Assembly: GCA_003166955.1 (NCBI GenBank)
Contig: PMUI01000056.1
Coordinates: forward strand, 1-45,111
Origin: Acidobacterium sp.
GTDB taxonomy: Bacteria > Acidobacteriota > Terriglobia > Terriglobales > Acidobacteriaceae
Length of the DNA stretch: 45,111 bases
Reading direction: 5' to 3'
Shown: positions 5,281 through 44,299 of the stretch, in pieces
How the letters are laid out: the number at the start of each line of letters is the position of its first letter
Numbering within the stretch: the stretch's first letter is position 1
Position numbers and translations under genes: made by a program
Notes under the pieces: generated by a model
What the model was told of the DNA's origin: nothing
What the model saw: the letters and a program-made list of their open reading frames with translations, nothing else
The model's database searches: none

Positions 5281-5290
5281 CCGTAACCCT

Positions 5291-5324: not shown

Positions 5325-5347
5325 TCAGCCTGTTCGGATCGACAATC

Positions 5348-8300
5348 CTAGAACACGATGTGCAGGTCCATCGTCACCACGCGCGAGCCGCCAATTGTGC
5401 CTGTGACTGATCCAAAATTCGCCCCATTGTTCGGACACCCACCCGTGATCGTCGCCTTGGAGCACGACAGCGTCCCCGCCGGCAGCGTCGTCGGAATGGT
5501 CGTCGTCTTGCCCGACCCATTGTGGAACGGCAACTGATCTAAATTCGTCAGCGCCGACTGTTGATCCACAGCACTGTTGCTCGTCGCAATCTGCCCGTAG
5601 TTCACGTAATCTGCGGCGCAATTGCCATCCGGAACCGCATACGCCGATGCCGAGCACGCGTCTGCCTGCCGGATCTCCGTCTGGTTTTGCGGCACGTCGA
5701 GGCTGGGCGTGTTCGTCACGTTGAATACGTTGAACCGGTATTCCAGCGTCAGTTTCTCCGACGGGCGGAATTGCTTCCGCACCGAAAGATCGGCCCGCTT
5801 CTGGAACGCCTGCCGGAACAGGTTGCGCTGTCCAGGCGCAAAATCGGTTTCGTAAATGTCCGACGGATCGCTCCCCGTCGAAACCGGAATCCCGTCGGTG
5901 CCCGGCGCCAGGTAGCGGATCGCAATTTGGCTCGGATCGATGGCGGGTATGTAACTGCCGGTGTTACGAAAGGCCCCCGAGTGCCCCGTCAGCGCGCTCT
6001 TCGGATTCGACCCGTTCTTGATCGGCAGCACCGGGTTCATCAGCGTCGGATAATCGCCAAAGAAAATGCTGCCCACCGCTCCATAAAACTCGTACAGCGA
6101 GTAGGGCTCCCCGCTCTGCGCGATCACCAGTCCGCTCAGGTGCCAGTCGTTGGTGAAGTACGACAACAGCGTGTTCGCCTTCGCCGCATTCGGAGCGGTC
6201 ACGTCGAAAGTCCCCGCTATCACATGCGTCCGGTCGAAGTCCGCCGGTGCATAGGAATCCCGCAGCCGGTTCGGATTGTCGCCCGTGAAGAAGAGTCCTA
6301 TGTCGCTCTGCTCGTCATACGTGTGGCTGTACGTGTAACTCACACCGCCCTGAACGTGGTGCGAGAGCCGCTTCTCCAGGTGCGCCTCCAGCCCGTCGTA
6401 GGCCGATGTGCCTGACGTCTCAAAAAACGCCGCGTTCGGACTGTATCCCACGTACGGCGCGCGGAAATCCGCGTTGCCGCCATCCTCCGTGTTCCACGGC
6501 TCGCCCGCTATCGGATCGTAATCGTACCCGTCCGACATGCTGTTCTGGTTCAGCACTTCGAACCCATAGCTCGCCGTCTCGCCGTGTACCGAATTGGTGG
6601 AGGTCGCCAGTAGCGGCTCGTTGAACGGGATCGGAATTACCGCATGCCGTCCGCGATTGCCGGTGTAGCCCAGCGTTACCGCCATGTCCGGCGTCGGCTG
6701 CCACTGCACGTTCAGTGTGAAATTCATTGTGTACGGCAGCACATTGTTCTTGTCGTACGCGCCAAAGTTCAGCGTGTACGGGCAATCCGTATACCCTTCC
6801 TGGTTGTCGATGCCGCCGCAGTTCGGGCCGTTGTACTTGCTCTGCCCCGTCATCCCGTTCAGCGTCGTCTGCAGTGCCGTCTTGATCGTCCCCGGATCGG
6901 AGCTCGGCTTCACCCAGTTCAGCGAGCCGGCGGTCTTCTCCAGCGGGCTCTCCAGGGTCGTGCCGTTGCCCACCACATAGCTGGCCAGCGGTGCCGACTC
7001 CGTAACACCGAACGGTCCGCCGTTGCCGCTGCCTGCCGGCTGCGACAAATAGCTGAAGTTTTCACCGCGGTCGAAGTACAGTCCGAATCCGCCGCGCCAC
7101 ACCAGGTTCCCGTGGTTCCGCTTCGGCGCCCACGCGAATCCTATGCGCGGCGAGATACCCCACTGCCGTCCGGTCAGTGTCGAATCGCTAACTCCCGCCG
7201 TCGGATTGTACTTATTGTTGCCCGCCACAATGAATCCCGCGTTGTTCACCGTGAATCCCGTCGTGGTCGTTCCGCTCACGCTGTACGTGCTCGGATCGAA
7301 GTTAAACATGTTGCCGTACTTTTCCGTCAGGCCACCGTGATAGTCGTAGCGTACCCCTGCCGTGATGTTCAGAGTCGACAGCGCCTGCCACTTGTCCTGC
7401 ACGTAACCCGATATCTCGTTCGTCCGGTAGTACCGGTCCGCATCGTTGCGCCCGCTCTTCGGATCGATCGTCTCCAGCACGTTCGAGCTCTTCACCGACC
7501 CGGCCAGAAACTTCTGGAAGCTCGCGCTCGTGATCTGCGCGATTCCATCGCGATTGTTGTCGATGTTCAGCTGGGTGTAACTGTAGCCGCCCCCGGCGAG
7601 AATCGTGTGCCGGCCCAGCGAAAACACGATGCTGGACGAAGGATTCAGCCGGTTCTGGTAGTAGCCGATGTCGGCAAACGAACTGAACGGACCAACCTTA
7701 AGACCCGGGGACAGACTGGTGTTCGCCGCCATTTCCTTGATCAGCAGCCCCGGCATCCCCGGAGCCGCAAACGGAGCGTCGCCCGGCGCCGCGGTTCCTA
7801 TGCCGAAATTTCCGCCCGGAACCGTCTGCGTGTAATAGCTGTAGGAGAACATCCGCGAATAGCCGAGCGTCTGCACCCAGTTGATCTTCGAGCCCAGCAC
7901 GATCGTGTTGCTGATCGCGCCCACCTGCGATCCGTTGTTCTGCGTCTGCGGGAATCCCCCCGTCTGCGACATCCCGTAAAGCCGCGCCGTCGGATCGTTC
8001 TGGTAGTAGTACTTCGCCGACAACCGGTCCGAGTTGGTCAACTGATAATCGAGAGATCCCGTCCCCTGGTCTCCCGTCAGCACCGACGTTCCGAGCAGCG
8101 TCACGTTCGGTATTCCATACTGATATGGCTGATTCGGCGCCTGCGTCGACGGAATCAGATAGCCGCCCGTCGGCGATTTCGCCTGCAGCATCGCCTGCGC
8201 CACCGGATCGATTGCGCCCGTGTATGCCTTGCCCGCGTTCCAGCTCGTCGCCGCAGCCGTCAGTCCCGCCGCTGTCCGGTCGTCGGTCAGTCCCGCAGGA

Positions 8301-9454
8301 ACATTCATCTGCGAGAGACCCGTCGAATTGTCCGAGTCATACAGCCGCTGGTACGCCGCGAAGAAAAACAGCTTGTTCTTGATAATCGGGCCGCCCACCA
8401 TGCCGCCCGCCGTCCACCGATGCAGCGCGGGATTCTCCAACCCCCCCGGGAACGCCCCCGCACCCTGCTGCGACAGCAGGTACTCCTGCTTGAAGAAGAA
8501 CGGATCGGCGTTCAGGCTGTTATTCGCGAAGCTCCCGTATAGCTGTCCATGAAACTGATTGGTGCCCGTCGAGGTGTTCGCGTCGATCTGCGCGCCGCTC
8601 GTCGCCCCCTGCTGCGCGTCGTACATCGAGGTGTTCACGCGCAGTTCCTGCAGAAACTCCGGCGGAGGAGAAGGCAGACTGTTTCCGTTCGACCCGTATA
8701 CGGACGTGTTGGTCTGCGAAGCCCCGCCTACACTCGCCATCCCGGCCGAGGACGTGCTCGACGTGCTGCCCCCGCCAATGTTGAAGTTGTAACGCTGCGA
8801 AGCGTCGCCGCTTGAGCTCATCCCGTTGAAGATGTTGCTCACGTCCGTACCGTTTACCTGAAACGTGTTGCTCGTCGCGCGCTGCCCGTTCGCCCAGATG
8901 TTCTGGTTGCCCAGACCCGCATTCGTATCGATCCCGCTCAGCAGTTCCGCATTCACGCCCGGCGCCAGAATCGCCAGTTGCGTAAAGCTGCCCGTCGCCA
9001 GCGGCGTCGTCTCGATCTGCGTCTTGTCCAGCGTGTACCCGTTGGTCGTGTCCGTGGCGTTCAGCAGCGGATTCGCCGTAACTGTCACCGACTCGGATAC
9101 TTTTCCCGGCTGCATGGCAGAGTTCAGCGTTTTCGCCTGCATTTCCTGTACCTGAATCGCCGGATAATTCATCGTATCGAAATTTGTCGAGGTCACGGTT
9201 ACCTGATACGTGCCCACCGGCAGGTTCAGGATCTCCCAGTACCCCGTCTTCTGCGTCGTCGTTGTCCGCTTCACCCCCGTCTGGTCGCTCGATACAGTGA
9301 CGGTCGCGCCGGCCATCGCTGCGCCGGAAATATCGGTCACCGTTCCGTTGATGCTGCCGAGCGTCTGCTGCGCTCGCGCCACTTGCGTGGTAAGCAGGAT
9401 GGAGAAAAACAGGCAGAACGCCGCCGGGAACTGGGTGAGAGCAAGCTTTTTCAT
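5348..9454 (-). CDS. Oar-like TonB-dependent receptor with carboxypeptidase-regulatory domain (receptor 2)
   Basis: Predicted outer-membrane receptor of 1368 residues, the largest of the four in the window. The signal peptide (MKKLALTQFPAAFCLFF..., cleavage after ARA) is followed by a carboxypeptidase-regulatory domain (GSINGTVTDISGAAMAGA) at about 34-120. The plug segment contains SVTVTANPLLNATDTTNG, and the barrel ends in MDLHIVF with a terminal Phe. The start at 9454 is supported by the signal peptide and a GAGG about 9 bases upstream; the in-frame ATG at 9523 would add an unrelated 23-residue leader. The gene has its own terminator and shares an upstream block with receptor 1. The ligand is unknown; family members are annotated as TonB-dependent transporters or Oar-like adhesion proteins. 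Confidence 0.93.
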   Translation of the reverse strand: MKKLALTQFPAAFCLFFSILLTTQVARAQQTLGSINGTVTDISGAAMAGATVTVSSDQTGVKRTTTTQKTGYWEILNLPVGTYQVTVTSTNFDTMNYPAIQVQEMQAKTLNSAMQPGKVSESVTVTANPLLNATDTTNGYTLDKTQIETTPLATGSFTQLAILAPGVNAELLSGIDTNAGLGNQNIWANGQRATSNTFQVNGTDVSNIFNGMSSSGDASQRYNFNIGGGSTSSTSSAGMASVGGASQTNTSVYGSNGNSLPSPPPEFLQELRVNTSMYDAQQGATSGAQIDANTSTGTNQFHGQLYGSFANNSLNADPFFFKQEYLLSQQGAGAFPGGLENPALHRWTAGGMVGGPIIKNKLFFFAAYQRLYDSDNSTGLSQMNVPAGLTDDRTAAGLTAAATSWNAGKAYTGAIDPVAQAMLQAKSPTGGYLIPSTQAPNQPYQYGIPNVTLLGTSVLTGDQGTGSLDYQLTNSDRLSAKYYYQNDPTARLYGMSQTGGFPQTQNNGSQVGAISNTIVLGSKINWVQTLGYSRMFSYSYYTQTVPGGNFGIGTAAPGDAPFAAPGMPGLLIKEMAANTSLSPGLKVGPFSSFADIGYYQNRLNPSSSIVFSLGRHTILAGGGYSYTQLNIDNNRDGIAQITSASFQKFLAGSVKSSNVLETIDPKSGRNDADRYYRTNEISGYVQDKWQALSTLNITAGVRYDYHGGLTEKYGNMFNFDPSTYSVSGTTTTGFTVNNAGFIVAGNNKYNPTAGVSDSTLTGRQWGISPRIGFAWAPKRNHGNLVWRGGFGLYFDRGENFSYLSQPAGSGNGGPFGVTESAPLASYVVGNGTTLESPLEKTAGSLNWVKPSSDPGTIKTALQTTLNGMTGQSKYNGPNCGGIDNQEGYTDCPYTLNFGAYDKNNVLPYTMNFTLNVQWQPTPDMAVTLGYTGNRGRHAVIPIPFNEPLLATSTNSVHGETASYGFEVLNQNSMSDGYDYDPIAGEPWNTEDGGNADFRAPYVGYSPNAAFFETSGTSAYDGLEAHLEKRLSHHVQGGVSYTYSHTYDEQSDIGLFFTGDNPNRLRDSYAPADFDRTHVIAGTFDVTAPNAAKANTLLSYFTNDWHLSGLVIAQSGEPYSLYEFYGAVGSIFFGDYPTLMNPVLPIKNGSNPKSALTGHSGAFRNTGSYIPAIDPSQIAIRYLAPGTDGIPVSTGSDPSDIYETDFAPGQRNLFRQAFQKRADLSVRKQFRPSEKLTLEYRFNVFNVTNTPSLDVPQNQTEIRQADACSASAYAVPDGNCAADYVNYGQIATSNSAVDQQSALTNLDQLPFHNGSGKTTTIPTTLPAGTLSCSKATITGGCPNNGANFGSVTGTIGGSRVVTMDLHIVF

Positions 9455-9580
9455 TTGTCTGGCCTCAGAAAAGGTTGGTGCTTTTTTTCCACGAAGCCCT
9501 GGAGAGAGCCCATGGATCTCCACGCTGGGGAATCTACGCGGATCGGCCCCACAAGGGTGTCACGAATCAATGAACGTCGC

Positions 9581-9652
9581 GTCAATTACAGCACGGATTT
9601 GGCCGCGGCCGGCGGCATTTTTTTATTTGCAGTGGAAACTTGGTGGAAAATT
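9581..9652 (-). promoter_or_regulatory. conserved upstream block of receptor 2 (candidate promoter)
   Basis: Counterpart of 5221-5280, placed 127-198 bp upstream of receptor 2. It has the same CAAATCC core with GG-N10-GC spacing, the TGCTGTAAT string and the AATTTTCCACC edge. Receptors 3 and 4 do not show it. Confidence 0.45.
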
Positions 9653-9674
9653 ATCTGTCACAGCTACAAATTCG

Positions 9675-12600
9675 TCAGAAAACCAGCCGGATTCCCGCCT
9701 GAATCTGCCGTTCCCTGTTCACCGCGCCGCTGTTGGCGTTCGTCACGCCCCCAAACGCCGCCGTCGGATCGAAAACATACTGCGTCTGGCTGCCGCCGTT
9801 CACCAAAACCGTTTTCGTTCCCGGCTTCTCCCCGCTCTGCCACGTCAGATTCGCCATGTTCGCGTGGGTCGTATCATTGCTCACGCGATAGCCCACCGTC
9901 TGAATATTCGTCACATTGCGATGGTTCGATGTGTTGAACGCCTCCCCCATCACATCGAATGAGCAACGGTCGCTGATACGAATTCTCTTCGTAAACCGCA
10001 AATCCAGATTCACCGCCACCGGATAGCGAAACGTATTCCGCCCCATCGCCGGAATCAGATCCTCCCCGCCCGACCCGTTCAGGTTCTCACCCAGGCTTGG
10101 AATGGGAACCGCCATCCCCGCCGTGTTGTTCGTGAACGTCTCGTCCGGCTGTGTCACCGCCTTCAGACAATTCGCCCCGTCCCCCGTCGCTCCGCCCGCA
10201 TTCAGCCAGTTTTCGTACGAACACGACGGCGTCGGCACCGCGCCTGTAGTCCGCATCGAATACGGCAGTCCCGTCCTCCACGCTCCCGCTGCCGCCAGCG
10301 AATAGCCCCCGAAGAACATTCCCGCAGGCCCGCGCAGCCGCCACGGCTCCCGCACCACCACGCCTCCCGCCACGCGTTGCCGCACATCGTAATTCGACGT
10401 GCCATGCTCCACCCGCAGATCCGCCGGATCGTAAACATCGTTCCGCTCCGCGAATGTCGCCTCGTTCTGGTTGTCGTCGATCGCATGCGCCCACGTGTAT
10501 GCCGCATTCACCTCCAGCGCCCGCGACATCCGCCGCCTCAGCCGCACCACCGCTCCGCGATAGCTGGAATTGGTCTCGCTCACCATATCCGTAATCGCGC
10601 CGTACGCAGGATGCAGCCGCTGATAGTAAAACCGCGCCGACGCATAAACCCGGTTCGTGTACCCGGAAACCTGCCCGCTCGCCTTCCCCAGCGGCCCGAT
10701 GTTCCCCTGATTTCCCGGCGCTATCACGCTGTAAAACAATGTCGCCGTATTCGTCAGATCGATATTCGTATCGATGAACTGCGTCAGATCGCGCCCATCC
10801 GTCGCCATTCCCGTAAGCGTCAGCACCGTGCGCGCCCCCAGTTCCTGCTCCAGCGACAACTCCATCTGATTGATCTGCGGATGCCGAAAACGCGGGTCGA
10901 AATAAACCGCCTCCGGCGCCGTTGAATTGTGATCCGGCGCGCCTGGATTCATATACGGCGTCTCGTTGCTCGCAAACACATGCGGAAATTGCGGCGCCGC
11001 CACGTCCATCGGCCGATACGAATAAGTCCGAGGCGAACCCGCCGCCCCCGTCGACGTCAGCGCGCTGAATACCATCGCGTTCGGTACCCGAGCGTAGTAG
11101 ATCCCATAGCCCCCACGCAAAACCGTGCGCCCCTTGCCAAAAACATCCCACGCAAATCCGCCCCGCGGCCCCAGCCCATCCTTATTGCGCGGCAAGTGCG
11201 CCGTCTCCGGAATATCCGCGTTCACCAGCGTGGAATTTGTATCAGGCACCTGTTCATATTCGTAGCGCGCGCCCAGCGTCAGCGTCAGCCGCTGCCCCAC
11301 CCTCCATTCATTGGCCACGTACGCCGCATAGTCGGCCGTCTCGAAACTCCAGTTCGTGCCGCCCACCGTCTGCCGAAACCGCGCGTAGCACGGATACGGC
11401 CCCGTTCCCGTCGTCGTGCCGTCACAGCTGTTCGGCGCCAGCATGTCCGATAGAAAATTCAGCAGGCTCGCGTACGAATACTCGCCGTTCTCGCCATTCA
11501 CCCCGTCGATTGCATCCGTCACGTAGTTGTAGTCATACCCAAACCGCAGAGCCTGTCTGCCATGGATCCACGTTGCTGCATCCATCAACTGCTGCCGCGT
11601 CTCCAGCGGATACTCCCGCTTGTTCACCGTCCCCAGCGTCCCAAAACTCAGCCCCTGGCTGCGATCGATCGACACCTGCGGTGGCAGCCCCCACCAGTTG
11701 TTCGCAAATTGTTCCTCAAAGGCGCTCGCCGCGCCCGGCGTCTGCGACAGCAAATCCCGGCTGTACTGATAGCGCATGCTGCTCAGCAAACCCGGCGTGG
11801 CAAAGAAATCCCAACGCGCTACCGCAGCGTCGTCGCTCGTCGAGCTGTTCCCGAAGCTCCCAATCGCGTCCGTCTCCGACGCCCCGCTCAGCGCCCCGTG
11901 CGGTGCCGTCCTCCGCATCGAGTTGTACTGCACGGCGATCTGGTTCCGCGGATTGATCCGCCACTCCAGCTTCGGAAACAGAATCGTCTGCCGCGTCGAG
12001 CGCGGCACCGTCCCCAGCATCCCATTCAGTTGCCCCAACACCGTCGTCCACGCGCATTCCGCCCGCGCCGTCGATCCCGATCCCGCACTCGCCGCCGCCG
12101 GGCAGCCCTTCAGCAACGGATTCGTGCTCGTCGCAATCCGCCCCTCCAGCGTTGTCAGCGATACCGCTGATGGCGGCGAGAAAAACACCTCCGGCTCATT
12201 CGCCCGCGCTACCGCCGGATCGTTCCGCTCATGCTGCGACCACGCCAAAAACCACCACAACCGATCCCGCCGAATCGGCCCGCCCGCCGACATCTCACCC
12301 TGCTGCCTGCGATCTGGCGCGTGATACGGCACCTCCACATATGTGATGGGCTGCCCGTTCAGATACAGCACCGGCTGCCCCGTCGACGTCACCGTCGTTC
12401 CCGCTGGCTCCTCCACCATCGTCTTGCTGAACGCATTGAACGCCTGCCCAATCGCCCCGCGATCATAAAACACCGCCTGCCCGTGCATCCGGTTCGACCC
12501 GCTCCTCGTCACGGTGCTCATCGCCCCGCCCGCCCCACGCCCCCCTTCTCCCGCGGCCCCACCCCCGCCAACCCGAAATTCACCCACCGCCGACTGCGCC

Positions 12601-13268
12601 GTCGCAAATCCGTTGCCCCCACCCTCACTTGTCCCGCGCTCCCGCGACCGAAACGCCAGCGTGTTGTTCATTCCATCCAGAACAATGCTGTTCATCAGCG
12701 GACTCAGCCCGCGGAAACTCGATCCACCGTCCTCCCCCGTCGTCGACCCGGAAAACAACGTTGCCAAACTCGACCAGTGCCCGCTGTTGTTCGGCACCTC
12801 GCCCGCCAGCGAATCGCCCGAACCGCCTCCCGCTCCAGCCTCGCTCTCGCGCCTCTCCGCCGCGCCGGCATCCACCAGCCCAGCATCGACGAGTATGGTC
12901 CGATGCATCCAGCTCGGCGCCAGCCGCGCCGTCAGTTGCGCCGTCGTCCCCAGCCCCACCGTCAGATGGTCAGCCTCCCACTCCGACAGTCCCTGCGCAC
13001 GCACCCGCAGCGTGTAGCTTCCCGGCGCCACTTCCGCGAATCGAAAATTGCCCCGCAGATCGCAAACCGCCTCCCCATGCTCCCCGGAAGACGCATCCTC
13101 CAGCCGTACCTGCGCCGCGGCGACCCCCTTACCTTCCTGGTCCACCACCCTCCCTGCCACCGACCCGCCCGTCTCCGCCTGCCCGGCACAAATCCGCACG
13201 AACGTCCCCAGACCGAGGACAAGCCACACACACAGCACCGCCGTTTTCTTGTATCGGGGGAGGAGCAC
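9675..13268 (-). CDS. Oar-like TonB-dependent receptor with carboxypeptidase-regulatory domain (receptor 3)
   Basis: Predicted outer-membrane receptor of 1197 residues starting at a GTG (13268). The signal peptide is [19 protein letters not shown], with cleavage near CAG. The carboxypeptidase-regulatory domain ([18 protein letters not shown]) spans about 34-115. The segment after the plug is unusually rich in glycine (about residues 215-255), around the family signature SGSNRMHGQ. The C-terminus is IQAGIRLVF. Downstream towards receptor 2 I see no convincing intrinsic terminator. It resembles receptor 1 more than receptor 2 ([37 protein letters not shown]). No neighbouring gene indicates the ligand. 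Confidence 0.92.
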
Positions 13269-14644: not shown

Positions 14645-15601
14645 CTACACCCGCTCAATCCAGAAACTACAAGGCCACACATTCCTGCCATCCAGGGTCG
14701 GAGCAAACATCTTCAACCCCGCAGGCATGCGCGTATAGCTGCCTTCCCATCCCGGAAATGCCTGCAGCAAAACCTCGGGATGGAACTGCTGCATCGCGCT
14801 GGCCGACCACATCACCCGAAACGCCGAATTGAACGACAAAAATGCTTCCAGCAGATACTGCTCGCCCCAGAAACACAGGTTCGTCTTCACGAACTTCTCC
14901 GGATAGTCCAGCGGCGTGAAGATATCGTGAAAATGCACCAGCACTCCCGGTGCCAGCTCTGGCAGGATGCGCAGGCATTCGTGCACCACATCGCTATCCA
15001 TCGACACCACATGGCTCGAGTCGATGAACAAAATATCGTTCTCCCGCAAATCGTGGAACACGCTCAGCGGTACCTGTTGCACCGGCATCTGCATCATGCG
15101 CGTCAGTCCCGGTACCCCCTCTTTCAGGAACCGTGCCGGATACGGCTCAATGCTGATCAGTTCCCCTTCGCATCCCTCCGCCGCGTTGGTCTGCAATGCA
15201 GCCCCGAGCACCAGCGTCGTGTTCCCACCGCCGATTTCAATCACCCGCTTCGGTTTCCGTTGCCGCACAAAACCGTACGCGACCTCGGCATCCACGTGCT
15301 CGAAATAGCCGTTGTTGAAGTGAAACTCGCGCTGCCCGTTCCCGTTTCTCTCCGCAAACGTCCGTTCCGTCGAGAACGGAATCAGCTCCGTCCGCAGCCG
15401 CTCGATCTGTTCCTCCAGACGGAAGTCCACGGCCGAGCACGGCCGGCACGCACTCCAGTCCTTTCCCCGGAATGACTTCAGTCTCGGCACCGGAAAGTAG
15501 AAGTGCGAGGGCGTCACACTCACTCCCAGCCCGGTTTGCAATGCCTGAAACAACGACGCCGCAGTCGTGCGGACGGTGGCGCTTCGCAGAATATTGCCCA
15601 C
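14645..15601 (-). CDS. class I SAM-dependent methyltransferase (Methyltransf_24 type)
   Basis: 318-residue cytoplasmic protein. The SAM-binding motif I is RVIEIGGGNTTLVLG (about 120-134), followed by ISIEPYPA (motif II acidic residue) and the strand LFIDSSHVVSMDSDV, with HFHDIF further on. This pattern matches class I methyltransferases related to cephalosporin hydroxylase/CmcI-like or sugar methyltransferases; the acceptor cannot be told. The start is a GTG at 15601 with GAGGG 4 bases upstream; later starts would cut into the LGVSVTPSHFYFPVP segment, which looks native. It is preceded on the same strand by a membrane protein, with a large inverted repeat between them, so co-transcription is uncertain. 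Confidence 0.85.
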   Translation of the reverse strand: MGNILRSATVRTTAASLFQALQTGLGVSVTPSHFYFPVPRLKSFRGKDWSACRPCSAVDFRLEEQIERLRTELIPFSTERTFAERNGNGQREFHFNNGYFEHVDAEVAYGFVRQRKPKRVIEIGGGNTTLVLGAALQTNAAEGCEGELISIEPYPARFLKEGVPGLTRMMQMPVQQVPLSVFHDLRENDILFIDSSHVVSMDSDVVHECLRILPELAPGVLVHFHDIFTPLDYPEKFVKTNLCFWGEQYLLEAFLSFNSAFRVMWSASAMQQFHPEVLLQAFPGWEGSYTRMPAGLKMFAPTLDGRNVWPCSFWIERV

Positions 15602-22170: not shown

Positions 22171-22330
22171 TCCCCGGATTGCAGATCGACTGGCTCTCGC
22201 TGAATTCCTTCTGTCATCGTTCCGTTGATTCCGCGAAAACACGCGTGAAGCCAGTACGCATTCGACGTGCACTATCCAACCCTCCGCGCGCGCCACGCGC
22301 GGGATTTGCTGCTCTTTCTGGAGACCTGTG

Positions 22331-25300
22331 ATGACGAAGTTTCTTGCGATCTGTGCCTGTTTCCTGGCGGCCTTTCTGGCCATCGTGCCCGCAACCCATG
22401 CGCAGAGCAATTACGCCGTAGTCCGCGGTTCGATTCTCGATCCGCAAAATCTCCCCGTTGTCGGCGCCCGCGTGCACCTCACCGAGCCGGACACCGGCGC
22501 CGAACGTGTTGCGTCTTCCAACTCCACCGGCATCTATGAAATTGCCGGCTTACAGCCAGGCGCGTACACCCTCGTCGTCGAGAGCACTGGTTTCCGCGAG
22601 GCAAAACAGACCATCAACCTCGAAGTGGGCCAGCAGGCCGCCATCGACGTTCACCTCATCGTCGGCGGCAAGTCGCAAACCGTAAACGTCACCGCAAATG
22701 GCGAGTTGCTCAAAACCCAGGACGCCAGCATCGGCGAGGTCGTCGATCAGCGCTCCGTCGACTCGCTCCCCCTCAACGGACGCATGTTGATCGACCTGGT
22801 CCTCACCGTCCCCGGCGCCCACGTCAGTCACGGCGCGGCCACCGGCGATATGAGTTCCCTCTATTGGCGCCCCGGCCAGCGTTCCGCCGTCAGCATCGGC
22901 GGCAATCGCCCCAACGCTAACTACTTCCTCCTCGATGGCGCCACCAACACCGACCCCACCTTCAGCACCCAGAACTTCAGCGCCTCCCCTGATGCCGTGC
23001 TGGAGTTCCAGGTCGAAACCGGCAGCTATTCCGCCGACATGGGCGGTGCCGGTGGCGGCCAGATCAACGTCGTCACCCGCTCCGGATCCAGCCACTTCCA
23101 CGGCACCGCCTATGAGTTCCTCCGCAACGGTGCTTTGGATGCCCACTCCTTCAATCAGATGGGCGGCTCCAATTTCCTCGTTCAGAATAATTTCGGCGCT
23201 GCGTTAGGCGGCCCCATTTGGCATGCCGGCAAAACCTTCTTCTTCGCCAACTATGAAGCCCTGCACAGCGTCGAGTTGATGACCATGGTCGACACCGTCC
23301 CCACCGCCGCCGAGGATTCCGGCGACTTCAGCCAGAGCGGCGTCAACATCTACGACCCCAACACCACCCAGCCCAACCCCAGTTACAACCCCAGCCTCCC
23401 GCCCAGCAAAACCAATCCTCAGTACATCCGCCAACAGTTCTCTTACAACGGCGTCCTGAATGTCATTCCCCCCAGCCGCCTTACGAAGGCCGCCTCCATC
23501 ATGCTCAACAAATACACGCCCCTGCCCAACTCCATGAACATGGGCGGCATGACCATGATGGGCCAGCCCACCGTCATCGGCGCCGGCAACGACGCCAATA
23601 ACTACCTCGACGCCCGCAAAGAACGCATGTTTGACGATCAGGGAACCTTCCGCGTCGATCACAACTTCTCGAGCGGCGACACCGCCTTCGCCCGCTACTC
23701 CGCCGGCACCGAGGACGGCTTCATGCCCGAAGGCCTCCCCGGCTTCGGCCTCTATCACGACAATTTCTCCGAGCAGGGAACCCTCGGCTGGTCCCGCGTC
23801 ATCTCCGCGCGGATGGTCAATGTTGCCTCCGTCGCCGCCTCCCGCCTCGCCATGTCCCACACCACCGAAAGCGCCAACAAAAACGACATCGTCGACGAAC
23901 TCGGCCTCACCGGCACTGGCTTCGGCGGGCCCAAAGCCTGGGGCGCGCCTTACTTCAACGTCCAGGGATACTCCCCACTGGGCGACAACTACCTCGCCAC
24001 CCCCATGAAAGCCTGGGACACCGTCATCGAAGGCCGTGACTCCCTCAGCTGGCAGCTCGGCCGCCACAGCACCAAATTCGGCGGCGTCTATCAGAAGTTC
24101 ATCTGGCCCATGTGGGGCTTCTTCCAGAACCGCGGCTACTATCAGTACACCAACGGCTACACCACCCAGGACGCTCTCAATGATGGAACCGGCTCCGCCC
24201 TCGCCAGCTTCCTCCTCGGTCTCCCCGCCGCCCGCCAGGGCCAGGCCGGTGTCCCCCAAATGAACCTCCATCAGTGGTACGCCAACGGCTACGCCCAGGA
24301 CGCATGGCGGCTCAGCTCCAACACCACCCTGAACTACGGAGTTCGCTATGAGTACATGGCTCCCCTCATCGACGTCGACTTCACCAACAGCAACCTCGTC
24401 TTCACCAACGGCACTCCTCAGGTCTTCATCGGCGGCCAAAATGGATACCCGCGCGGCCTCATGTATCCCAACTACGCCCGCTTTGCCCCTCGCCTCGGCC
24501 TGGCGCAAGCCCTGCCCCACCTCGGCATGGTCGCCCACGTCGCCTACGGCGTCTTCTACACGCCCGTCGACATGAACACCTGGTGCAACCAGCGCCACAA
24601 CGTCCCCTACGTCTTCCCCGAAACCTCGCAGAGCGATCCCTACATTCCCAGCATCACCACGCTCAACTTCCCAACCCCGGTCCTCGGCACCACTGTCGTC
24701 AGCTTCACCGGACTCCAGCTCCACGCCCCGCCGCAGTACATCCAGCAGTGGAGCGCTTCGCTTGAAAAACAGCTCGGCACCCAGACCACCCTCGAAGTCG
24801 GCTACCTCGGCGCGGGCGGCTTCCATCTCCAGCGTTCGCACCTCGTCAACGACGCGCAGCCCGGTGCGGGACTCATTCAGCCCCGCCGCCCCTTCCCAAA
24901 GATCAGCTTCGTCCCCAACACCACCTTCCCCTCAACCACCACGGTTGCCAGCACCACATTTCCAGTCAGCACCATGAATCTGCTCGAAAACACCGCGCAG
25001 AGCTGGTATGACGCGGGCTACGTTAACGTCCGCCGCCGCTATGCCCACGGCCTCAGCTTCCTCGCCAACTACACCTTCGCCAAAGCTCTCGACAACGCTC
25101 CCGACTTCCGTTCGCCCATGTTCGAGCCCGCCACCCCGCAGAACAACTACGACCTCGACGCGGAAAAAGGTCCCGCCTGTGATGTCCGCCAACGCTTCGC
25201 TCTCAGCGCCGTAGGCAGTTCAGCGCCTCTCGGATCCAACTACTTCGAACGCGCCGTCACCCGCAACTGGCGCGGCTCCATAGAATACCAGGCGCAAACC

Positions 25301-25717
25301 GGCTTCCCTGAAACCATCAACGTCTTTGGCGACACAGCCAACGCCGGCACCGTCGTCGGCGAGAATCCCATCCGCGCCAATGTCACCGGCAACAAAATCT
25401 TCGGCCCAGGCACGCGGAACTCCACCACCTGGTTCAACCCGACGGCATTCGCTGCGCCGCCCGCCTACACCTTCGGCAACGTCAGCCGCAATTCCGTCTA
25501 TGGCCCCAACCTCCAGAGCATGGACCTCGGCGTAGTCCGTGAATTCAGCGTCGCCGAAAAAGCCCGCTTCGAAGCCCGCGCCGAGTTCTTCAACGCCCTC
25601 AATCACACCAACCTCGGCACCCCCAACCGCTTCGTGAATACCGCCAACTTCGGCAGCATCACAGAAGTCACAACCCCAGGCCGCGAAATCCAGCTCAGCG
25701 GTCGTCTCTCCTTCTAG
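22331..25717 (+). CDS. Oar-like TonB-dependent receptor with carboxypeptidase-regulatory domain (receptor 4)
   Basis: Predicted outer-membrane receptor of 1128 residues. The signal peptide (MTKFLAICACFLAAFLA, cleavage after THA) is followed by a carboxypeptidase-regulatory domain at about 28-112 (VRGSILDPQNLPVVGA). The plug contains LPLNGRMLIDLVLTVPG and SGSSHFHGTAYEFLRNG, and the barrel ends in EIQLSGRLSF. The ATG at 22331 is preferred over the GTG three bases earlier; GGAGA lies 7 bases upstream. A hairpin 41 bp after the stop may terminate it. It differs from receptors 1-3 in strand, and its two flanks recur downstream, suggesting past duplication of this locus. Confidence 0.93.
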   Translation: MTKFLAICACFLAAFLAIVPATHAQSNYAVVRGSILDPQNLPVVGARVHLTEPDTGAERVASSNSTGIYEIAGLQPGAYTLVVESTGFREAKQTINLEVGQQAAIDVHLIVGGKSQTVNVTANGELLKTQDASIGEVVDQRSVDSLPLNGRMLIDLVLTVPGAHVSHGAATGDMSSLYWRPGQRSAVSIGGNRPNANYFLLDGATNTDPTFSTQNFSASPDAVLEFQVETGSYSADMGGAGGGQINVVTRSGSSHFHGTAYEFLRNGALDAHSFNQMGGSNFLVQNNFGAALGGPIWHAGKTFFFANYEALHSVELMTMVDTVPTAAEDSGDFSQSGVNIYDPNTTQPNPSYNPSLPPSKTNPQYIRQQFSYNGVLNVIPPSRLTKAASIMLNKYTPLPNSMNMGGMTMMGQPTVIGAGNDANNYLDARKERMFDDQGTFRVDHNFSSGDTAFARYSAGTEDGFMPEGLPGFGLYHDNFSEQGTLGWSRVISARMVNVASVAASRLAMSHTTESANKNDIVDELGLTGTGFGGPKAWGAPYFNVQGYSPLGDNYLATPMKAWDTVIEGRDSLSWQLGRHSTKFGGVYQKFIWPMWGFFQNRGYYQYTNGYTTQDALNDGTGSALASFLLGLPAARQGQAGVPQMNLHQWYANGYAQDAWRLSSNTTLNYGVRYEYMAPLIDVDFTNSNLVFTNGTPQVFIGGQNGYPRGLMYPNYARFAPRLGLAQALPHLGMVAHVAYGVFYTPVDMNTWCNQRHNVPYVFPETSQSDPYIPSITTLNFPTPVLGTTVVSFTGLQLHAPPQYIQQWSASLEKQLGTQTTLEVGYLGAGGFHLQRSHLVNDAQPGAGLIQPRRPFPKISFVPNTTFPSTTTVASTTFPVSTMNLLENTAQSWYDAGYVNVRRRYAHGLSFLANYTFAKALDNAPDFRSPMFEPATPQNNYDLDAEKGPACDVRQRFALSAVGSSAPLGSNYFERAVTRNWRGSIEYQAQTGFPETINVFGDTANAGTVVGENPIRANVTGNKIFGPGTRNSTTWFNPTAFAAPPAYTFGNVSRNSVYGPNLQSMDLGVVREFSVAEKARFEARAEFFNALNHTNLGTPNRFVNTANFGSITEVTTPGREIQLSGRLSF

Positions 25718-29837: not shown

Positions 29838-30722
29838 ATGTCAACAGCATCCGAAATCCGCGAAGAAGTAAAACAGAAATACTCGACCGCTGCCCGCGCC
29901 GTCGCCGAAAACACCAATGTCCAGGCCTGCTGCGACCCCGCCCTCCGCTGTTGCGACCCCATCACCACCAACCTCTACAGCGACGGCGAAAAGGGCCTCA
30001 TCCCCGAGAAGGCTGCCCTGGCCTCCCTCGGCTGCGGCAATCCAACCGCGCTCATCGAACTCCACCCCGGCGAAGTCGTCCTCGACCTCGGCTCGGGCGG
30101 CGGCATCGACGTGCTCCTCTCCGCCCGCCGCGTCGGCCCCACCGGCAAAGCCTACGGCCTCGACATGACCGACGAAATGCTCGCCCTCGCCCGTGAAAAT
30201 CAGCGCCAGGCCGGCGTCCACAACGTCGAATTCCTCAAGGGCGAAATCGAAAACATCCCCCTCCCCAACAACTCTGTCGACGTCATCATCTCCAACTGCG
30301 TCATCAATCTCTCCGCCGACAAAGACCGCGTCCTCCGCGAAGCCTTTCGCGTCCTCCGTCCCGGCGGCCGTTTCGCCGTCTCCGATGTCGTCGTCCGCGG
30401 CGAGGTCCCCGCCGCCGTGCGCGAAAGCATGCTGCTCTGGGCAGGCTGCATCGCCGGTGCCCTCGAGGAAAACGACTACCGCGCCCGCCTCACCGCCGCC
30501 GGCTTCGCCGCAATCTCCGTCGAGCCCACCCGAACCTACAACATCGAAGATGCTCGCCAGTTCCTCACCGAAGCCGGTATCGACGTCGACACCATCGCCC
30601 CGCAGATTGAAGGCAAGTTCCTCAGCGCCTTCATCCGAGCCGCAAAACCAGAAGCCAATGCAGTCCAGCCCTGCTGCGCCCCAGGCTGCTGCGCCCCTGT
30701 CAAGGCCGAGGCAAAGGAGTAA
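29838..30722 (+). CDS. arsM: ArsM arsenite S-adenosylmethionine methyltransferase
   Basis: 294 residues. The SAM site is DLGSGGGID (83-91). The three cysteines that bind arsenite in characterised ArsM are present: Cys66 (LGCGNP), Cys154 (SNCVIN) and Cys204 (WAGCIAG). An N-terminal [10 protein letters not shown] motif (31-40) and a C-terminal CCAPGCCAP tail add further thiol pairs, as in many bacterial ArsM that hand As(III) to the active site. It methylates trivalent arsenic to mono-, di- and trimethyl species. First gene of arsM-arsC-acr3; the stop at 30722 is 3 bp before arsC, with AGGAG overlapping the stop region. Confidence 0.96.
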
Positions 30723-33716: not shown

Positions 33717-34802
33717 ATGACCGCCGCCACAGCTCCCTTCAAAAACAAATGGGCGTTCTCGCTGCTGTGGACCAACGCTGCCGTGGCGTTAGTGGGCCTG
33801 ATCGTGTTCGCAACCACTCCGGTCCACAACGCCCGCTCCATTCTGCAAACCCTGGCCTTCACCTTTGTCTACGCCAACGTCACCAGCATTCTCGCCCTCT
33901 TTCTCCTCGGCTGGCTGGTCGAAAGACTTGCCGCCCCCAGGGTTCCGCAGTGGACCGTGCTGATTCCCGGAATCGTTCTCTTCACCGCGGGCGGCTGCCT
34001 GTTGGCCCAGGCGCTGCTCACGGCCCTCGGCTTCTCCGCATCCCAGCATTTTTGGCTCGACTACTTCCACTCCCTCCGCATCGCCATGCCCCTCGCCCTC
34101 GTCTTCGGCCTCGGCGCCATGACCCACGGATCCCTCCTCGCCCGTGTGCACCTCATGGAGCACCAGCTCCACGAAAAAGAATTATCCGAAGAGCGCACCC
34201 GCAAGCTTGCCGCCGAATCCCGCCTCCGCTCCCTCGAATCCTGGATCCACCCCCACTTCCTCTTCAACACCCTCAACTCCATCAGCGCCCTCATCCCTCA
34301 GGACCCCGCCCGCGCTGAGCAAATCGTCGGCCGCCTCGCCAATCTCCTCCGCGCCTCCCTCGACACCAGCTCCCACTCCCTCATTCCCCTCCGCCAGGAA
34401 CTCGCCCTCGTCGAAAGCTACCTCGACATCGAGCGCGTTCGCCTCGGCGAAAAACTCCACGCCACCATCGACGTCCCCGCCGCCCTCGCCGAAACCAAAG
34501 TCCCACCCATGTCCATCCAGTCCCTCGTCGAAAACGCCGTCAAGTACGGCATCACCCCGCAGCCCAACGGCGGCGCCATCCTCATCACCGCCGCAGCCGG
34601 CAACAACGGCACCGTCCACATCGACGTCCGCGACTCAGGCCCAGGCTTCGACCTCGCCGCCATCCCCGCCAACCACGGCCTCGACAAGCTCGTCCAGCGT
34701 CTCGACGCCCTCTTCGGCGAAGACGCCACCCTCAAAGTCTTCCGCCCCGGTCCCGGTTCTGACAACGCCTCCATCGTTGAAATGGTCGTCCCACGCCCAT
34801 GA
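33717..34802 (+). CDS. LytS/YehU-type membrane sensor histidine kinase
   Basis: 361 residues. Four hydrophobic segments cover about residues 13-135, then a short coiled-coil linker. The His_kinase domain carries the phospho-acceptor signature HPHFLFNTLN (His178/His180). The ATPase part has VENAVKYG (N box) and DSGPGFDL (G1 box). It phosphorylates the LytTR regulator encoded next; the two genes overlap by ATGA at 34799-34802, indicating coupled translation. Unlike many LytS proteins it lacks a recognised 5TM-LYT sensor motif, so the stimulus is unknown. Confidence 0.93.
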   Translation: MTAATAPFKNKWAFSLLWTNAAVALVGLIVFATTPVHNARSILQTLAFTFVYANVTSILALFLLGWLVERLAAPRVPQWTVLIPGIVLFTAGGCLLAQALLTALGFSASQHFWLDYFHSLRIAMPLALVFGLGAMTHGSLLARVHLMEHQLHEKELSEERTRKLAAESRLRSLESWIHPHFLFNTLNSISALIPQDPARAEQIVGRLANLLRASLDTSSHSLIPLRQELALVESYLDIERVRLGEKLHATIDVPAALAETKVPPMSIQSLVENAVKYGITPQPNGGAILITAAAGNNGTVHIDVRDSGPGFDLAAIPANHGLDKLVQRLDALFGEDATLKVFRPGPGSDNASIVEMVVPRP

Positions 34803-35602
34803 CCCTCCGCGCTTATCTCGTCGACGACGAACCCCTCGCCCTCGACCGCCTCCGCCGCCTCCTCGCGCAAACCGGCCGCGTCGAAGTCCTCGGCGCAACC
34901 ACCAAACCCGAAGAGGCCGTCACCGCCCTCACCGCCAATCCACCCGACCTCTGCTTCCTCGACATCCAGATGCCCCGCCTCAACGGCTTCGAAGTCCTCG
35001 CCCGCCTCCCCACCCAGCCCATCGTCATCTTCACTACCGCCTGGGACCAGTACGCGCTCCAGGCTTTCGGCGTTAACTCCGTCGACTATCTCCTCAAGCC
35101 CATCGAGCCCGAAGCCCTCACCCGCGCTCTCGATAAAGTCGAGCGCCTCCGAGCCTTAAGTCAGGCCTCCGTCGACACCCAGCCCCAGTCCGCCCCAACC
35201 CAACCCGACCTGCAAACCCTCCTCCAACAAATCGCCAACTCCCTCCACGACGCGACGCCCGACTACCCCGACCGCATCGCCTCTCGCCTCGGCGACCGCC
35301 TCTGGTTCCTCAACCTCGACCGCGTCACCCACTTCTACGCCGAAGACAAACTCACCTGGGCCGTCTCCGAAGGCAAACCCCACTGCGTCGACCACACCAT
35401 CGCCCAACTGGAAAAGAAACTCGACCTCAAAAAATTCTTCCGCATCCACCGCGCCACCATCGTCAATCTCTCCTGGATCGCGGAAGTCTCCACCCTACCC
35501 GGCGGAGCCCTCAACCTCCGCCTCAGCGACCCCAAACGAACGGACCTAACCGTAGCCCGCGACCGAGCCCACCATTTCAAAACCAAGCAGGCCTGTAGAT
35601 AG
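34799..35602 (+). CDS. LytTR-family response regulator
   Basis: 267 residues. The receiver domain (1-120) has the acidic pair Asp9-Asp10, phospho-acceptor Asp55 in FLDIQMP, Thr in FTTAWD and Lys in LLKPIEP. After a Gln/Pro-rich linker, a LytTR DNA-binding domain (about 160-263) shows DRLWFLNLDRVTHFYAEDK and FFRIHRATIVNLSWI. It is a cytoplasmic transcription factor controlled by the overlapping kinase gene. Targets are unknown; the preceding secreted-protein gene is a possible candidate. Confidence 0.95.
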   Translation: MTLRAYLVDDEPLALDRLRRLLAQTGRVEVLGATTKPEEAVTALTANPPDLCFLDIQMPRLNGFEVLARLPTQPIVIFTTAWDQYALQAFGVNSVDYLLKPIEPEALTRALDKVERLRALSQASVDTQPQSAPTQPDLQTLLQQIANSLHDATPDYPDRIASRLGDRLWFLNLDRVTHFYAEDKLTWAVSEGKPHCVDHTIAQLEKKLDLKKFFRIHRATIVNLSWIAEVSTLPGGALNLRLSDPKRTDLTVARDRAHHFKTKQACR

Positions 35603-41089: not shown

Positions 41090-41974
41090 TTATCGCGGAG
41101 CAACCACCGGATTCTTAGCCAGCACCCGATCGACCACTCCTTCAATATCCTGCAGGAAGAAGCCCGTCGGCGCCCCAACCATAACCGGCTCGGGCATCTG
41201 TCCCAGGCCCTTGGCCAGCGCGTTCCACCGCGCCAGCATCGAGCTCGGCGGCAGCACGATCATATTGCGCTCGGCTTCCGGCTCGCGGACCAGGAAGTAC
41301 ACGGCCCAGGTCACAAGTACCATCGAAGCCACGGCCTGTTGGGAGACGTTCTGATACGAAGTGAGTCCGGGGCAGCTCGAGGGAATCGCTGAGAAAATCA
41401 GCTCTGTGGCCGCCTGCACCCCGAATCCAAGCCCGATGCCAAACAGCCGGCTGCGGAACGACCGGCCCAGCGAGTGAATCGAAAGCGCCAGGAACGCGAG
41501 CAGGCAAAGTTCCATCACGCTCACGCACCGCATCATCTGCACGCAAACCGGACCGATCTTGTTCGCATCGTGTGAAGCCATCGCGTTCGGCAACGCAACC
41601 GCGCCAACGGCCACTACGATCGAAACCACGCTGATCCAGCGGAAGGCCATCAGTCCAAGACGGCGAAGCCCAGGCACGGGTTCCATAACCCGCTTGAATA
41701 CTTCCTGGACGACAAAGAAGACCGAGACTGTAATAGCGACGTAGGTAACCCAGAAGCCATAGAAGTAGGCCTCGTAGCGCGCGGAGGAAGTCGTCGTCAT
41801 CGTGCCACCGAGGTTGTAAACAACCTCAAGGTAGGCCAGCGAAGCGAGGCGCACCACAAGATAAGTTGCCACAGCCGGCAACCGATGCGCGGACTTGGAC
41901 CTGAAGAATGAAAAGGCCGCTAGAACGACGAGTACGGGCTCGAGCCGGATAAGAATATCCTGCAGATGCTCCAT
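41090..41974 (-). CDS. seven-helix integral membrane protein of unknown function
   Basis: 294 residues starting at the ATG at 41974, with GAGAGGAAG just upstream. A short amphipathic start (MEHLQDILIRLEPVLVVLA) opens about seven hydrophobic helices: 12-22, 33-55, 68-92, 108-130, 144-170, 180-200 and 212-230. A soluble cytoplasmic-type C-terminal tail of about 65 residues follows. Cysteines occur in VCVQMMRCVSVMELC. I recognise no catalytic motif. It is transcribed in the same direction as the repeat-peptide gene, which ends 140 bp upstream, and has a clear terminator, so the two could share a transcript. A functional link is only inferred. Confidence 0.75.
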   Translation of the reverse strand: MEHLQDILIRLEPVLVVLAAFSFFRSKSAHRLPAVATYLVVRLASLAYLEVVYNLGGTMTTTSSARYEAYFYGFWVTYVAITVSVFFVVQEVFKRVMEPVPGLRRLGLMAFRWISVVSIVVAVGAVALPNAMASHDANKIGPVCVQMMRCVSVMELCLLAFLALSIHSLGRSFRSRLFGIGLGFGVQAATELIFSAIPSSCPGLTSYQNVSQQAVASMVLVTWAVYFLVREPEAERNMIVLPPSSMLARWNALAKGLGQMPEPVMVGAPTGFFLQDIEGVVDRVLAKNPVVAPR

Positions 41975-42113
41975 CGCTTCCTCTCAGAGCTTCGAGGATA
42001 GCGAAGTCACGTTACCGGCTCAAGCAAATTCCTCAGCCAAAACGGCTTACACGCTGCCACTTTCGTGGTAGCGTGGTTACCGTAGTACTGATGGCTGCCT
42101 TTAGTTCAATAGT

Positions 42114-42434
42114 TCAGTGGCACTTTGCGCCCGGACTGCAGGTCGGGATCGGCATAGCAGCAACCAGGACCTTGCACTTTGCACCCGGACTGCAGGTTGG
42201 GATGGGCATCGCAGCATCCAGGAGGTGGCACTTTGCACCCGGGCTGCAGGTCGGAATCGGCATCGCTGCCACGTGGCACTTTGCACCCGGACTACAGGTC
42301 GGGATCGGCATCGCCCCAACCAGTGCCTGGTGACTCGTGACCATCGGGACCGTGCCGATGTGCGACGTGGCAAACGCTGCTGTCGCACCTGCAACACACA
42401 TTCCGAGAACGAGAGTCTTAACGGCAATTTTCAT
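42114..42434 (-). CDS. secreted four-repeat cysteine peptide precursor
   Basis: 106 residues. The ATG at 42434 has GAGGAG 10 bases upstream; a TTG 21 bases earlier overlaps that signal and is rejected. The signal peptide MKIAVKTLVLGMCVAGATAA ends FA/TSH (cleavage near 22). After a linker (23-40) the 13-residue unit AMPIPTCSPGAKC appears four times without amino-acid change at 41-53, 57-69, 75-87 and 93-105, each followed by His or Lys and separated by 3-5 residues. All four DNA units differ, but only at synonymous positions (seven variable codons). Each unit has a CX5C pair with nearby Met and His. It could be a multi-core peptide precursor, a metal-binding secreted protein or a structural repeat; no modifying enzyme is encoded within the window. 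I know no described family with this motif. Confidence 0.85.
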   Translation of the reverse strand: MKIAVKTLVLGMCVAGATAAFATSHIGTVPMVTSHQALVGAMPIPTCSPGAKCHVAAMPIPTCSPGAKCHLLDAAMPIPTCSPGAKCKVLVAAMPIPTCSPGAKCH

Positions 42435-42953
42435 GACTGTTGTACTCCTCAACAAAAGTTGTACGGGCCTGACTACTGTAGTTGTAGAGATTTCTGCTTA
42501 CACCGAGGACTATAACTGCTAAGTTGACTGTTTGTTTTTACTTCTCGGTATTATCAAAGTATTCAACACCAACGATTACCGCCGTCCTCTCCTCCCCACC
42601 CGACCCGCTACGTCAGCTCTCCCAAGCCCCTCAATAGAAGCGGCACGACCGCGCAGGTAGACCGTCATAAATTGCTCAATTTAAACTGTTTATACGAATG
42701 CACTCGGCCTTGCCCCTCTCCTTTCCGCGCTCCTGCAGGCCGCGCCCAGCCAGTCCGCGACCCCGAAAGCCGCGCATTCCGTCCCAGTTCAGTTCAAAGC
42801 CATTGGCTTCTTCGCCATTGGCGGCACCGGCGATAGTGCAAAGAACAGCGTTGATCCATGCCGCACCTCGGCTCCGGATCACCCCAAACGCCCGTCTTTG
42901 AGCAAGTCCCGCCTGGAATTCCTGGGCGCAGCCAGCGAAGAGTGCCGCCTCCG
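42435..42953. other. 519-bp region upstream of the repeat-peptide gene
   Basis: AT-richer than its surroundings between 42435 and 42700, consistent with promoter DNA for the minus-strand peptide gene, though no confident -35/-10 pair is seen. From about 42700 to 42956 a plus-strand frame has protein-like sequence (SVPVQFKAIGFFAIGGTGD) but lacks a start codon. Confidence 0.4.
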
Positions 42954-43628: not shown

Positions 43629-43752
43629 GCCAAAAGCATAACGTGGAGCCGCGCATGTGCGAACCGAGCCACCCGACCTACTATCCTCGGACCTTTTCCG
43701 CGCGTCTCTTCGGAGCGCACTGCGCTACGCGCTACCGTCTACGGGCTACAGG

Positions 43753-43829
43753 CTTCCTGCTTCCGGCTTCCTGCTTCCGGCTTCCTGCTTCCTGCTTCCT
43801 GCTTCCTGCTTCCTGCTTCCTGCTTCCTG
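43753..43829. repeat. 7-bp tandem array (CTTCCTG/CTTCCGG) x11
   Basis: Eleven perfect-length units, nine CTTCCTG and two CTTCCGG, in the spacer between the YdeI-type gene and the gene ending at 43838. It is likely unstable by replication slippage. Confidence 0.97.
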
Positions 43830-43837
43830 CTAGTTTT

Positions 43838-44299
43838 CTACGGCACCGCCGGCATATTCGGCAGCTGATTCTGCTGCTGCAGATTGTGCACGTGCACGAA
43901 GCCCCAGATCGTAAGCCCCGCCATGGCCCCAATCCCCGCCCCCATGAAGATCCAGAACCCGCGCGTCGGGCCCGTGCGCATGTCGACGACGTCCGCATAG
44001 TTCACCGTCACCGGCTGCGGATCGTTGAACAACTGCAGCGTGAACGAGTCGGTATTGATCGCGATAATCCTGCCCCACAGTTCGACGCCGTTGTTCAGAG
44101 CCACCGCAACAGGGTTGTCGATCCCGCGCTTCATGATCCGCGCGTGCACCGTCACCGCATCCAGCGGCTTCGCTTTCGCATACGCTCCAGGGGGAACAAC
44201 GAAGAGAGCAATCAGAAGGGAAGCGACCGCGGCATAAAACCGGGCAGAGAACCGAGCAGAAAAACCCAAAGCAGAAGGACTACCCAAAGCAGATCCCAT
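43838..44299 (-). CDS. small exported/membrane-anchored hypothetical protein with Sm-like segment
   Basis: 153 residues. The N-terminus has a signal-like segment (FYAAVASLLIALFVVPPGAYA). The middle part, VALNNGVELWGRIIAINTDSFTLQLFNDPQPVTVNYADVVDM, follows the alternating pattern of an Sm-like barrel (NG..l.G.i..i..dsf.l). A C-terminal hydrophobic helix follows (GFWIFMGAGIGAMAGLTIWGFV) with a Gln/Asn-rich tail. Similar proteins occur in acidobacteria without known function. Start ATG at 44299, with AGG nearby; ATG/GTG codons further in would shorten the leader. The Sm-like reading is inference from pattern. Confidence 0.72.
   Translation of the reverse strand: MGSALGSPSALGFSARFSARFYAAVASLLIALFVVPPGAYAKAKPLDAVTVHARIMKRGIDNPVAVALNNGVELWGRIIAINTDSFTLQLFNDPQPVTVNYADVVDMRTGPTRGFWIFMGAGIGAMAGLTIWGFVHVHNLQQQNQLPNMPAVP

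Follow-up and report, generated by a model that had tools for sequence, protein, structure and literature searches.

The peptide precursor encoded on the minus strand at positions 42114 to 42434 of the window, the 45,111-nucleotide stretch of DNA analyzed here, belongs to a family of short secreted peptides whose defining feature is their pairing with a seven-transmembrane (7TM) protein encoded by the next gene downstream. The peptides carry an export signal, their cores are conserved within a genome, and the cores can be present in several copies, either within one precursor or in tandem genes. From these properties we infer that the two genes constitute a peptide-ligand/membrane-receptor module in which the peptide would bind to the 7TM protein and the latter would signal; we give this reading a probability of about one half.

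The precursor gene contains four identical core units

The window comprises the entire contig C63 of genome G000. The open reading frame (ORF) of the precursor runs from an ATG at 42434 to 42114 on the minus strand and encodes 106 residues followed by a stop codon. The sequence GAGGAG is located 10 nt before the ATG (42445 to 42450, minus strand), and for this reason the strong Shine-Dalgarno site claimed in the original prediction holds. The N-terminus, MKIAVKTLVLGMCVAGATAAFA (42369 to 42434, minus strand), was read as a signal peptide, in line with the family alignment, and by the AxA rule we place its cleavage after AFA. It is followed by a spacer of about 18 residues and by four exact copies of the unit AMPIPTCSPGAKC, located on the minus strand at 42276 to 42314 (unit 1), 42228 to 42266 (unit 2), 42174 to 42212 (unit 3), and 42120 to 42158 (unit 4). 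Each unit contains a Met and a CX5C motif followed by His or Lys. Candidate forms of the core peptide are AMPIPTCSPGAKC and MPIPTCSPGAKCH.

Seven of the 13 codons differ among the units and every difference is synonymous, resulting in a pS of 0.39 (21/54) and a pN of 0 (0/180) for the six pairs of units. The signal peptide, the four perfect repeats with their CX5C, Met, and His/Lys residues, and the seven codons varying only synonymously had all been read correctly from the DNA alone. The substitution counts support the assumption that selection holds each unit constant and, together with the homologues described below, the proposal of a secreted precursor with a pheromone-like multi-copy architecture. 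The plus-strand frames across this region are open as well, but it is the minus frame that has been conserved in relatives.

No second match to the precursor better than E 0.196 was obtained in G000, and an Rfam scan of the window gave no match at the gathering score. A promoter/terminator scan of positions 41800 to 42900 found no promoter-like site and three terminator-like sites, compared to 1.3 (standard deviation 1.3) in shuffled sequences. Weak library matches of the precursor (DUF3082, ExtJ, PRK09290, phrog_12661) were considered noise.

Homologues of the peptide in the bacterial family

When 200 genomes of the bacterial family were searched with the single sequence, 47 of them had a match at E ≤ 0.01, and many of these matches were weak. 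The convincing homologues are peptides of about 53 to 73 residues with one unit, which follow the pattern MK..(V/I)RA.VLG...A..AA, spacer, xPxPxCxP..xC. M1, A19, P44, P46, C48, and C55 were invariant in 20 aligned homologues. Homologues with conserved units, which the original prediction could not draw on, do exist: a peptide profile (A1) matched in 176 of 398 family genomes and in 28 of 79 genera (E ≤ 0.01), mostly to single-unit peptides. When the same profile was applied to 297 genomes of the phylum, 31 had a match, 23 of them within the family. The matches in the other eight genomes, which had E values of 8e-4 to 9e-3 and in several cases contained stop codons, were judged to be due to chance, as was a Phycisphaeraceae stretch found by scanning genome contigs with the precursor, which matched residues 62 to 89 in an ORF unlike a secreted peptide. 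Weak single-sequence matches in long ORFs (at L017, L024, L029, and L033) were considered unrelated.

Multiplication of the core has taken two routes, tandem genes (two to six copies, e.g., at loci L108 and L120 to L126) and internal repeats. Internally repeated precursors of the window's genus have species-specific cores, with CSPGAKC present four times in G000, CGPKGC five times in G208, CGPSGC three times in G220, and CSPGTIC three times in G241. A fifth repeat homologue of the genus, that of G232, does not read through because of an unknown base and a break in its frame.

The peptide gene is paired with a downstream 7TM gene

For the window and 40 wide loci, a single ORF cluster was common to 39 of the 41 loci. 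It represents a hydrophobic protein of about 300 residues encoded by the next gene downstream on the same strand, which in the window is located at 41090 to 41974 (minus strand). Of the two remaining loci, L101 has a partial 7TM copy at the contig end and L091 is cut by the contig. The next most shared cluster was present in 23 of the 41 loci. The original prediction had seen no partner for the precursor, a view that the conservation of this gene in 39 of 41 wide loci overturns.

We then considered 107 peptide places in 106 genomes, hand-picked among the matches listed by taking the copy nearest to a 7TM gene and omitting the second G097 place, which is cut by the end of contig C25 (L091). In 90 of these 107 listed places, a 7TM gene followed on the same strand within 1.5 kb, and the gap between the two genes had a median of 134 b (range 80 to 1129). 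Inspection of the other 17 places revealed a 7TM gene in 15, including those in G062, G012, and G212, which raises the count to 105 of 107. The two places without a 7TM gene, in G172 and G298, are located at contig ends. As in peptide pheromone/receptor pairs, a short exported peptide is encoded beside a membrane protein at these places. At three loci, two 7TM genes in tandem were observed behind one peptide gene (L093, 7197 to 9321; L105, 9071 to 10889; L106, 8766 to 10560), and the second of them was the more divergent.

The pair has housekeeping surroundings. A gyrB cluster is found upstream on the opposite strand in 17 of the 41 loci (one gyrB ORF was checked with Pfam), and a cluster for ribosomal protein L21 is found downstream in 21 of the 41 loci, including the window (two L21 ORFs were checked with Pfam). 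A YdeI/DUF1905 protein is encoded near the pair in the genus of the window.

Properties of the 7TM protein

The partner encoded in the window has 294 residues. Family-averaged hydropathy showed seven hydrophobic segments, and a single-sequence AF2 model, which was poor (pLDDT 47), contained seven long helices plus tail helices. The topology was analyzed with 14 sequences and segment borders set by us. Loops 1, 3, and 5 contained 2.29, 2.71, and 2.50 K/R per sequence, respectively, and the N-terminus and loops 2, 4, and 6 contained 0.08, 1.47, 0.71, and 0.65. By this charge distribution, an N-out/C-in orientation is predicted. The predicted cytoplasmic tail is conserved. Entropy was 2.0 to 2.5 in the N-terminus and the predicted outer loops versus 1.3 to 1.6 in the inner loops.

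Comparison of the 7TM protein with Pfam, NCBIfam, PADLOC, PHROG, and PDB sequences gave no credible match, and none of the Pfam profiles of known 7TM receptor families matched significantly. No PADLOC model for anti-phage defense matched the pair. A match to 2HCT (E 0.0047) in one of 14 members, other library matches of single members, and matches of the 7TM profile to JNK kinases in the PDB (E 0.14 and higher) were dismissed as noise. At E ≤ 1e-5 the 7TM profile (A2) itself, which also picks up divergent members and paralogues, had matches in 76 of the 79 genera of the family and in 368 of its 398 genomes; a plasmid collection contained no homologue. A fusion of the 7TM protein to an output domain was not found. 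The apparent N-terminal fusions at L306 and L307 look like out-of-frame read-through, as the extensions are rich in Arg and the 7TM parts have a Met of their own.

Divergent 7TM paralogues are often preceded by peptides of their own

Divergent 7TM members often have a short secreted peptide encoded just upstream, such as ..ADGLPVPSCDPTVTKNCPMPIKL (L146), ..AGGNPLPLCDPSTGICRKP (L202), and the cysteine-free ..STAPPPTPHGLRK (L226, two copies). A strict detector found a small ORF resembling a signal peptide-bearing protein (SP-like) upstream of 112 of 141 distinct 7TM genes and upstream of 52 of the 77 that were reached through the 7TM protein alone. The background of this detector was 5.5% at random positions (682/12418) and 7.7% upstream of other long ORFs (15/196). 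As it misses real peptides (e.g., at L199, L204, L243, L253, L095, L225, and L271), some of the 25 of 77 genes without a detected peptide are misses of the detector. A looser detector, applied to more loci, found an upstream SP-like ORF for 134 of 174 7TM genes, a number that includes loci reached through the peptide; the background rates above are those of the strict detector.

PxP or PP was present in 126 of these 134 ORFs, and C-x2-9-C after residue 20 was present in 111. Other 7TM paralogues are preceded at this position by peptides without cysteine (L226, L296, L328, and L330). Because of these peptides the thiol metal-binding role considered in the original prediction has become less plausible, although two cysteines are found in 111 of the 134 ORFs. 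About a dozen 7TM genes had no upstream peptide on reading, among them L138, L140, L178 to L180, L183, L188, L193, L196, L201, L242, and L244.

Fourteen of the 44 genomes with a match lay outside the family. In these, peptide-like ORFs before the 7TM gene were present in G566, G458, G552, and G404 and none was seen in G484, G492, G531, G545, G465, G596, G600, G614, and G635; the locus in G516 is cut by the contig. In G000 there are two 7TM members, that of the window pair and one at C61:43754-44542, which is preceded by ..AFAGPGGDDPPPPPPPASLGF, so that both members have a peptide and the two peptides differ (2/2). G050 contains eight 7TM members, seven of which are preceded by mutually different peptides. 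We also noted a second family of pairs (L150, L253 to L255, L282), in which the peptide is mostly free of cysteine and ends with LSLGDYA.IV.SV.GL, a hydrophobic end that is not rich in proline.

Multi-copy precursors and possible release of the core

Repeat precursors precede 12 of the 174 testable 7TM genes, and four of the 12 are from the window's genus. The 12 precursors comprise eight core types. The precursor at L225 has six units of SFGPGIPFPDPTTG, the first one being a variant, that at L296 five units of NMPVFPTPPAVKTA, that at L297 eight units of SPMVVPPNPFPQPQPKGNSSKVAF, that at L227 seven or eight units of SLPRPAGTLQAKGIIG, and that at L330 seven units of MSPASPHPVPPP. Three units of GPWPFPDDSAGGN were found at L268, which belongs to another bacterial family, and G458, from a further family, has three units of DGMTGIPP at L271 and two units of DGGSGIPP at L312. 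The eight core types have little in common except Pro-x-Pro or Pro-Pro. A degenerate three-copy precursor (L327), a Gly/Ser low-complexity sequence (L094), and antisense frames of repeats were kept outside the 12. A repeated hexamer was present in 3 of 159 background SP-like ORFs, of which one is the precursor gene of the window and the other two are different frames of a single DNA repeat. Repeat-containing DNA open in two frames was also observed in L106 (about 15240 to 15300), where the 7TM genes are over 2.5 kb away.

An A-x-A-like pattern is typical of signal-peptidase sites. In four related precursors, A, V, I, or T is present three residues before the Met in 14 of 15 units, and the residue directly before the Met is A. 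As this A belongs to the conserved unit, only the -3 position is informative. The units are linked by ALA at L330 and by IAA at L268. Such sites are not universal, and since the linkers in L227 and L297 are different, no general protease can be named.

Selection on the core

The core is mostly kept identical within a genome, while it differs between genomes and between paralogous pairs. The other internally repeated genes had pS/pN values of 0.36/0 (G220), 0.66/0 (G241), and 0.34/0.05 (G208), and the nonsynonymous changes in G208 are all located after the second Cys. For tandem gene copies at 11 loci, pN was 0.016 in the core (41/2590), 0.076 in the spacer, and 0.042 in the leader, with pS between 0.19 and 0.26. 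Seven of the 11 loci had a core pN of zero, and changes occurred at L101, L108, L109, and L119. The core is therefore under purifying selection within a genome and diverges between species.

A proposed ligand/receptor module and its alternatives

According to our proposal, the precursor would leave the cytoplasm through Sec and be trimmed beyond the inner membrane, for which the AxA-like sites before the units of several precursors are candidates. Trimming would release a Pro-x-Pro peptide of roughly 13 to 20 residues, with two cysteines in the window's subgroup that may form a disulfide. The released peptide would bind from outside to the 7TM protein of its own gene pair, whose conserved inner loops and cytoplasmic tail could relay the signal to a partner. 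The distance between peptide cores showed a partial r of 0.30 with the outer loops, which is barely above the 0.24 obtained with the inner parts (72 pairs). No regulator was found to travel with the pair, as kinase or LytTR genes were near only L096 and L097 (several other loci were short). In the window, two overlapping genes for a LytS-like histidine kinase (PF06580) and a LytTR response regulator are located at 33717 to 35602 (plus strand), 6.5 kb from the pair.

The main alternative is an antimicrobial peptide that inhibits relatives, with the 7TM protein protecting the producer. A gene pair with species-specific cores, multiple copies, and a membrane partner would be expected in this case too, but no exporter or maturation gene was seen to travel with the pair (no other cluster was shared by more than 23 of 41 loci), and some genomes hold a 7TM gene without a recognizable peptide. 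We consider an immunity function unlikely because, in contrast to the patchy distribution of bacteriocin loci, members of the 7TM family are present in 368 of the 398 genomes of the bacterial family and the locus keeps its housekeeping neighbors (gyrB in 17 and L21 in 21 of 41 loci). The constant pairing and the C-x2-9-C motif in 111 of 134 upstream ORFs would also be consistent with a peptide that stays in the periplasm as an accessory subunit of the 7TM protein or as a metal or thiol carrier and is no messenger. Cysteine-free peptides in the same place (L226, L296, L330), the differences of the cores between species, and the head-to-tail multiplication, which suggests that identical units are released, speak against such a role, and we rate it as less probable again.

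A role of the 7TM protein in processing or transport of the peptide, by AgrB-like maturation or as a channel, with the receptor located elsewhere, appears improbable to us: the peptide has its own signal sequence, the conserved 7TM columns show no evident conserved His/Cys or Ser/Asp pair, and no credible peptidase or transporter was matched in Pfam or NCBIfam, even if the two genes are adjacent and the repeats must be processed somewhere. Finally, the cores might be those of a ribosomally synthesized, modified peptide (RiPP) altered by enzymes encoded elsewhere, with the 7TM protein as an auxiliary, as multi-core precursors are known among RiPPs (PMC5934393). A modifying enzyme was not found with the precursor, either as a cluster above 23 of 41 loci or when 20 ORFs of the window other than the peptide and 7TM genes were scanned with Pfam, in agreement with the earlier statement that the window encodes no such enzyme. 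A class I methyltransferase is encoded 11 kb from the pair, at 29838 to 30722, but has no known link to it, and the precursor has a Sec-type signal peptide rather than a cytoplasmic leader. We regard this explanation as very improbable. The multi-core RiPP reading of the original prediction lacks a linked enzyme in its support and the thiol/metal reading is weakened, whereas the secreted precursor, the selection on its units, its pheromone-like architecture, and the existence of homologues are supported.

Returning to the ligand/receptor module, a family of peptide signals with matching partners is suspected because relatives carry the same gene pair with different peptides. It is possible, with a probability somewhat short of even, that the phylum harbors a large undescribed family of peptide-ligand/7TM-receptor pairs, with seven pairs in G050 and prohormone-like precursors that have arisen repeatedly, as a convergent bacterial counterpart of the alpha-factor and neuropeptide precursors and their 7TM receptors. 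In the open-access full-text literature we found no description of the peptide/7TM pair. If the peptides are ligands, communication would be genetically simple, with one gene for the message and one for the receiver, and readable from genomes. Stand-alone 7TM proteins whose peptide partners are encoded by genes would then represent a rare case in bacteria, as would the prohormone-like multi-copy precursors. More than 100 predicted ligand/partner pairs, single-core and multi-core, are available.

Comparison with known systems

In peptide quorum sensing of Gram-positive bacteria (Agr, Phr/Rap, ComX/ComP), a short exported strain-specific peptide is encoded beside its receptor or target. The adjacency and the strain-specific sequence resemble the pair described here. 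In contrast, the Gram-positive receptors are kinases or cytoplasmic TPR proteins, whereas the shared neighbor in our loci is a stand-alone 7TM protein without a kinase domain and not the set of receptor histidine kinase, AgrB protease, and LytTR regulator that characterizes an Agr-type system. Unlike the Gram-positive signals, the peptides here sometimes have several cores per precursor. All bacterial peptide-signaling systems known to us use kinases or cytoplasmic receptors. A 7TM sensor architecture is shared with the sensor regions of bacterial kinases and with 7TMR-DISM receptors, but those are fused to output domains, whereas the partner described here stands alone and has no Pfam match.

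The alpha-factor acts on a 7TM receptor. Kex2-processed repeat proteins, including the precursors of alpha-factor and other fungal pheromones, are described as having a signal peptide followed by head-to-tail cores (PMC7329392), as is the case here. According to the same source, these repeats are highly diverse, and the mating-factor types mostly have no linked cyclization gene (PMC7329392). The fungal precursors are cleaved by Kex2 in the Golgi, whereas the bacterial ones have AxA-like or other linkers and an adjacent 7TM gene; the likeness is one of architecture, with no homology shown between the fungal repeat proteins and the window precursor. Microviridins, which are multi-core RiPPs, likewise have several core peptides per precursor, but a dedicated cyclase is described for them (PMC5934393), and no linked enzyme was seen at our loci.

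Other features of the window

At about 43700 to 43840, near the YdeI-like gene, the window contains a short tandem DNA repeat that reads LLPASCF on the plus strand and SRKQEAG on the minus strand. It also encodes four large beta-barrel proteins of the outer membrane that have carboxypeptidase-regulatory-like domains (OMP_b-brl_4), three of them in a row, at 1523 to 13268 (minus strand) and 22328 to 25717 (plus strand).
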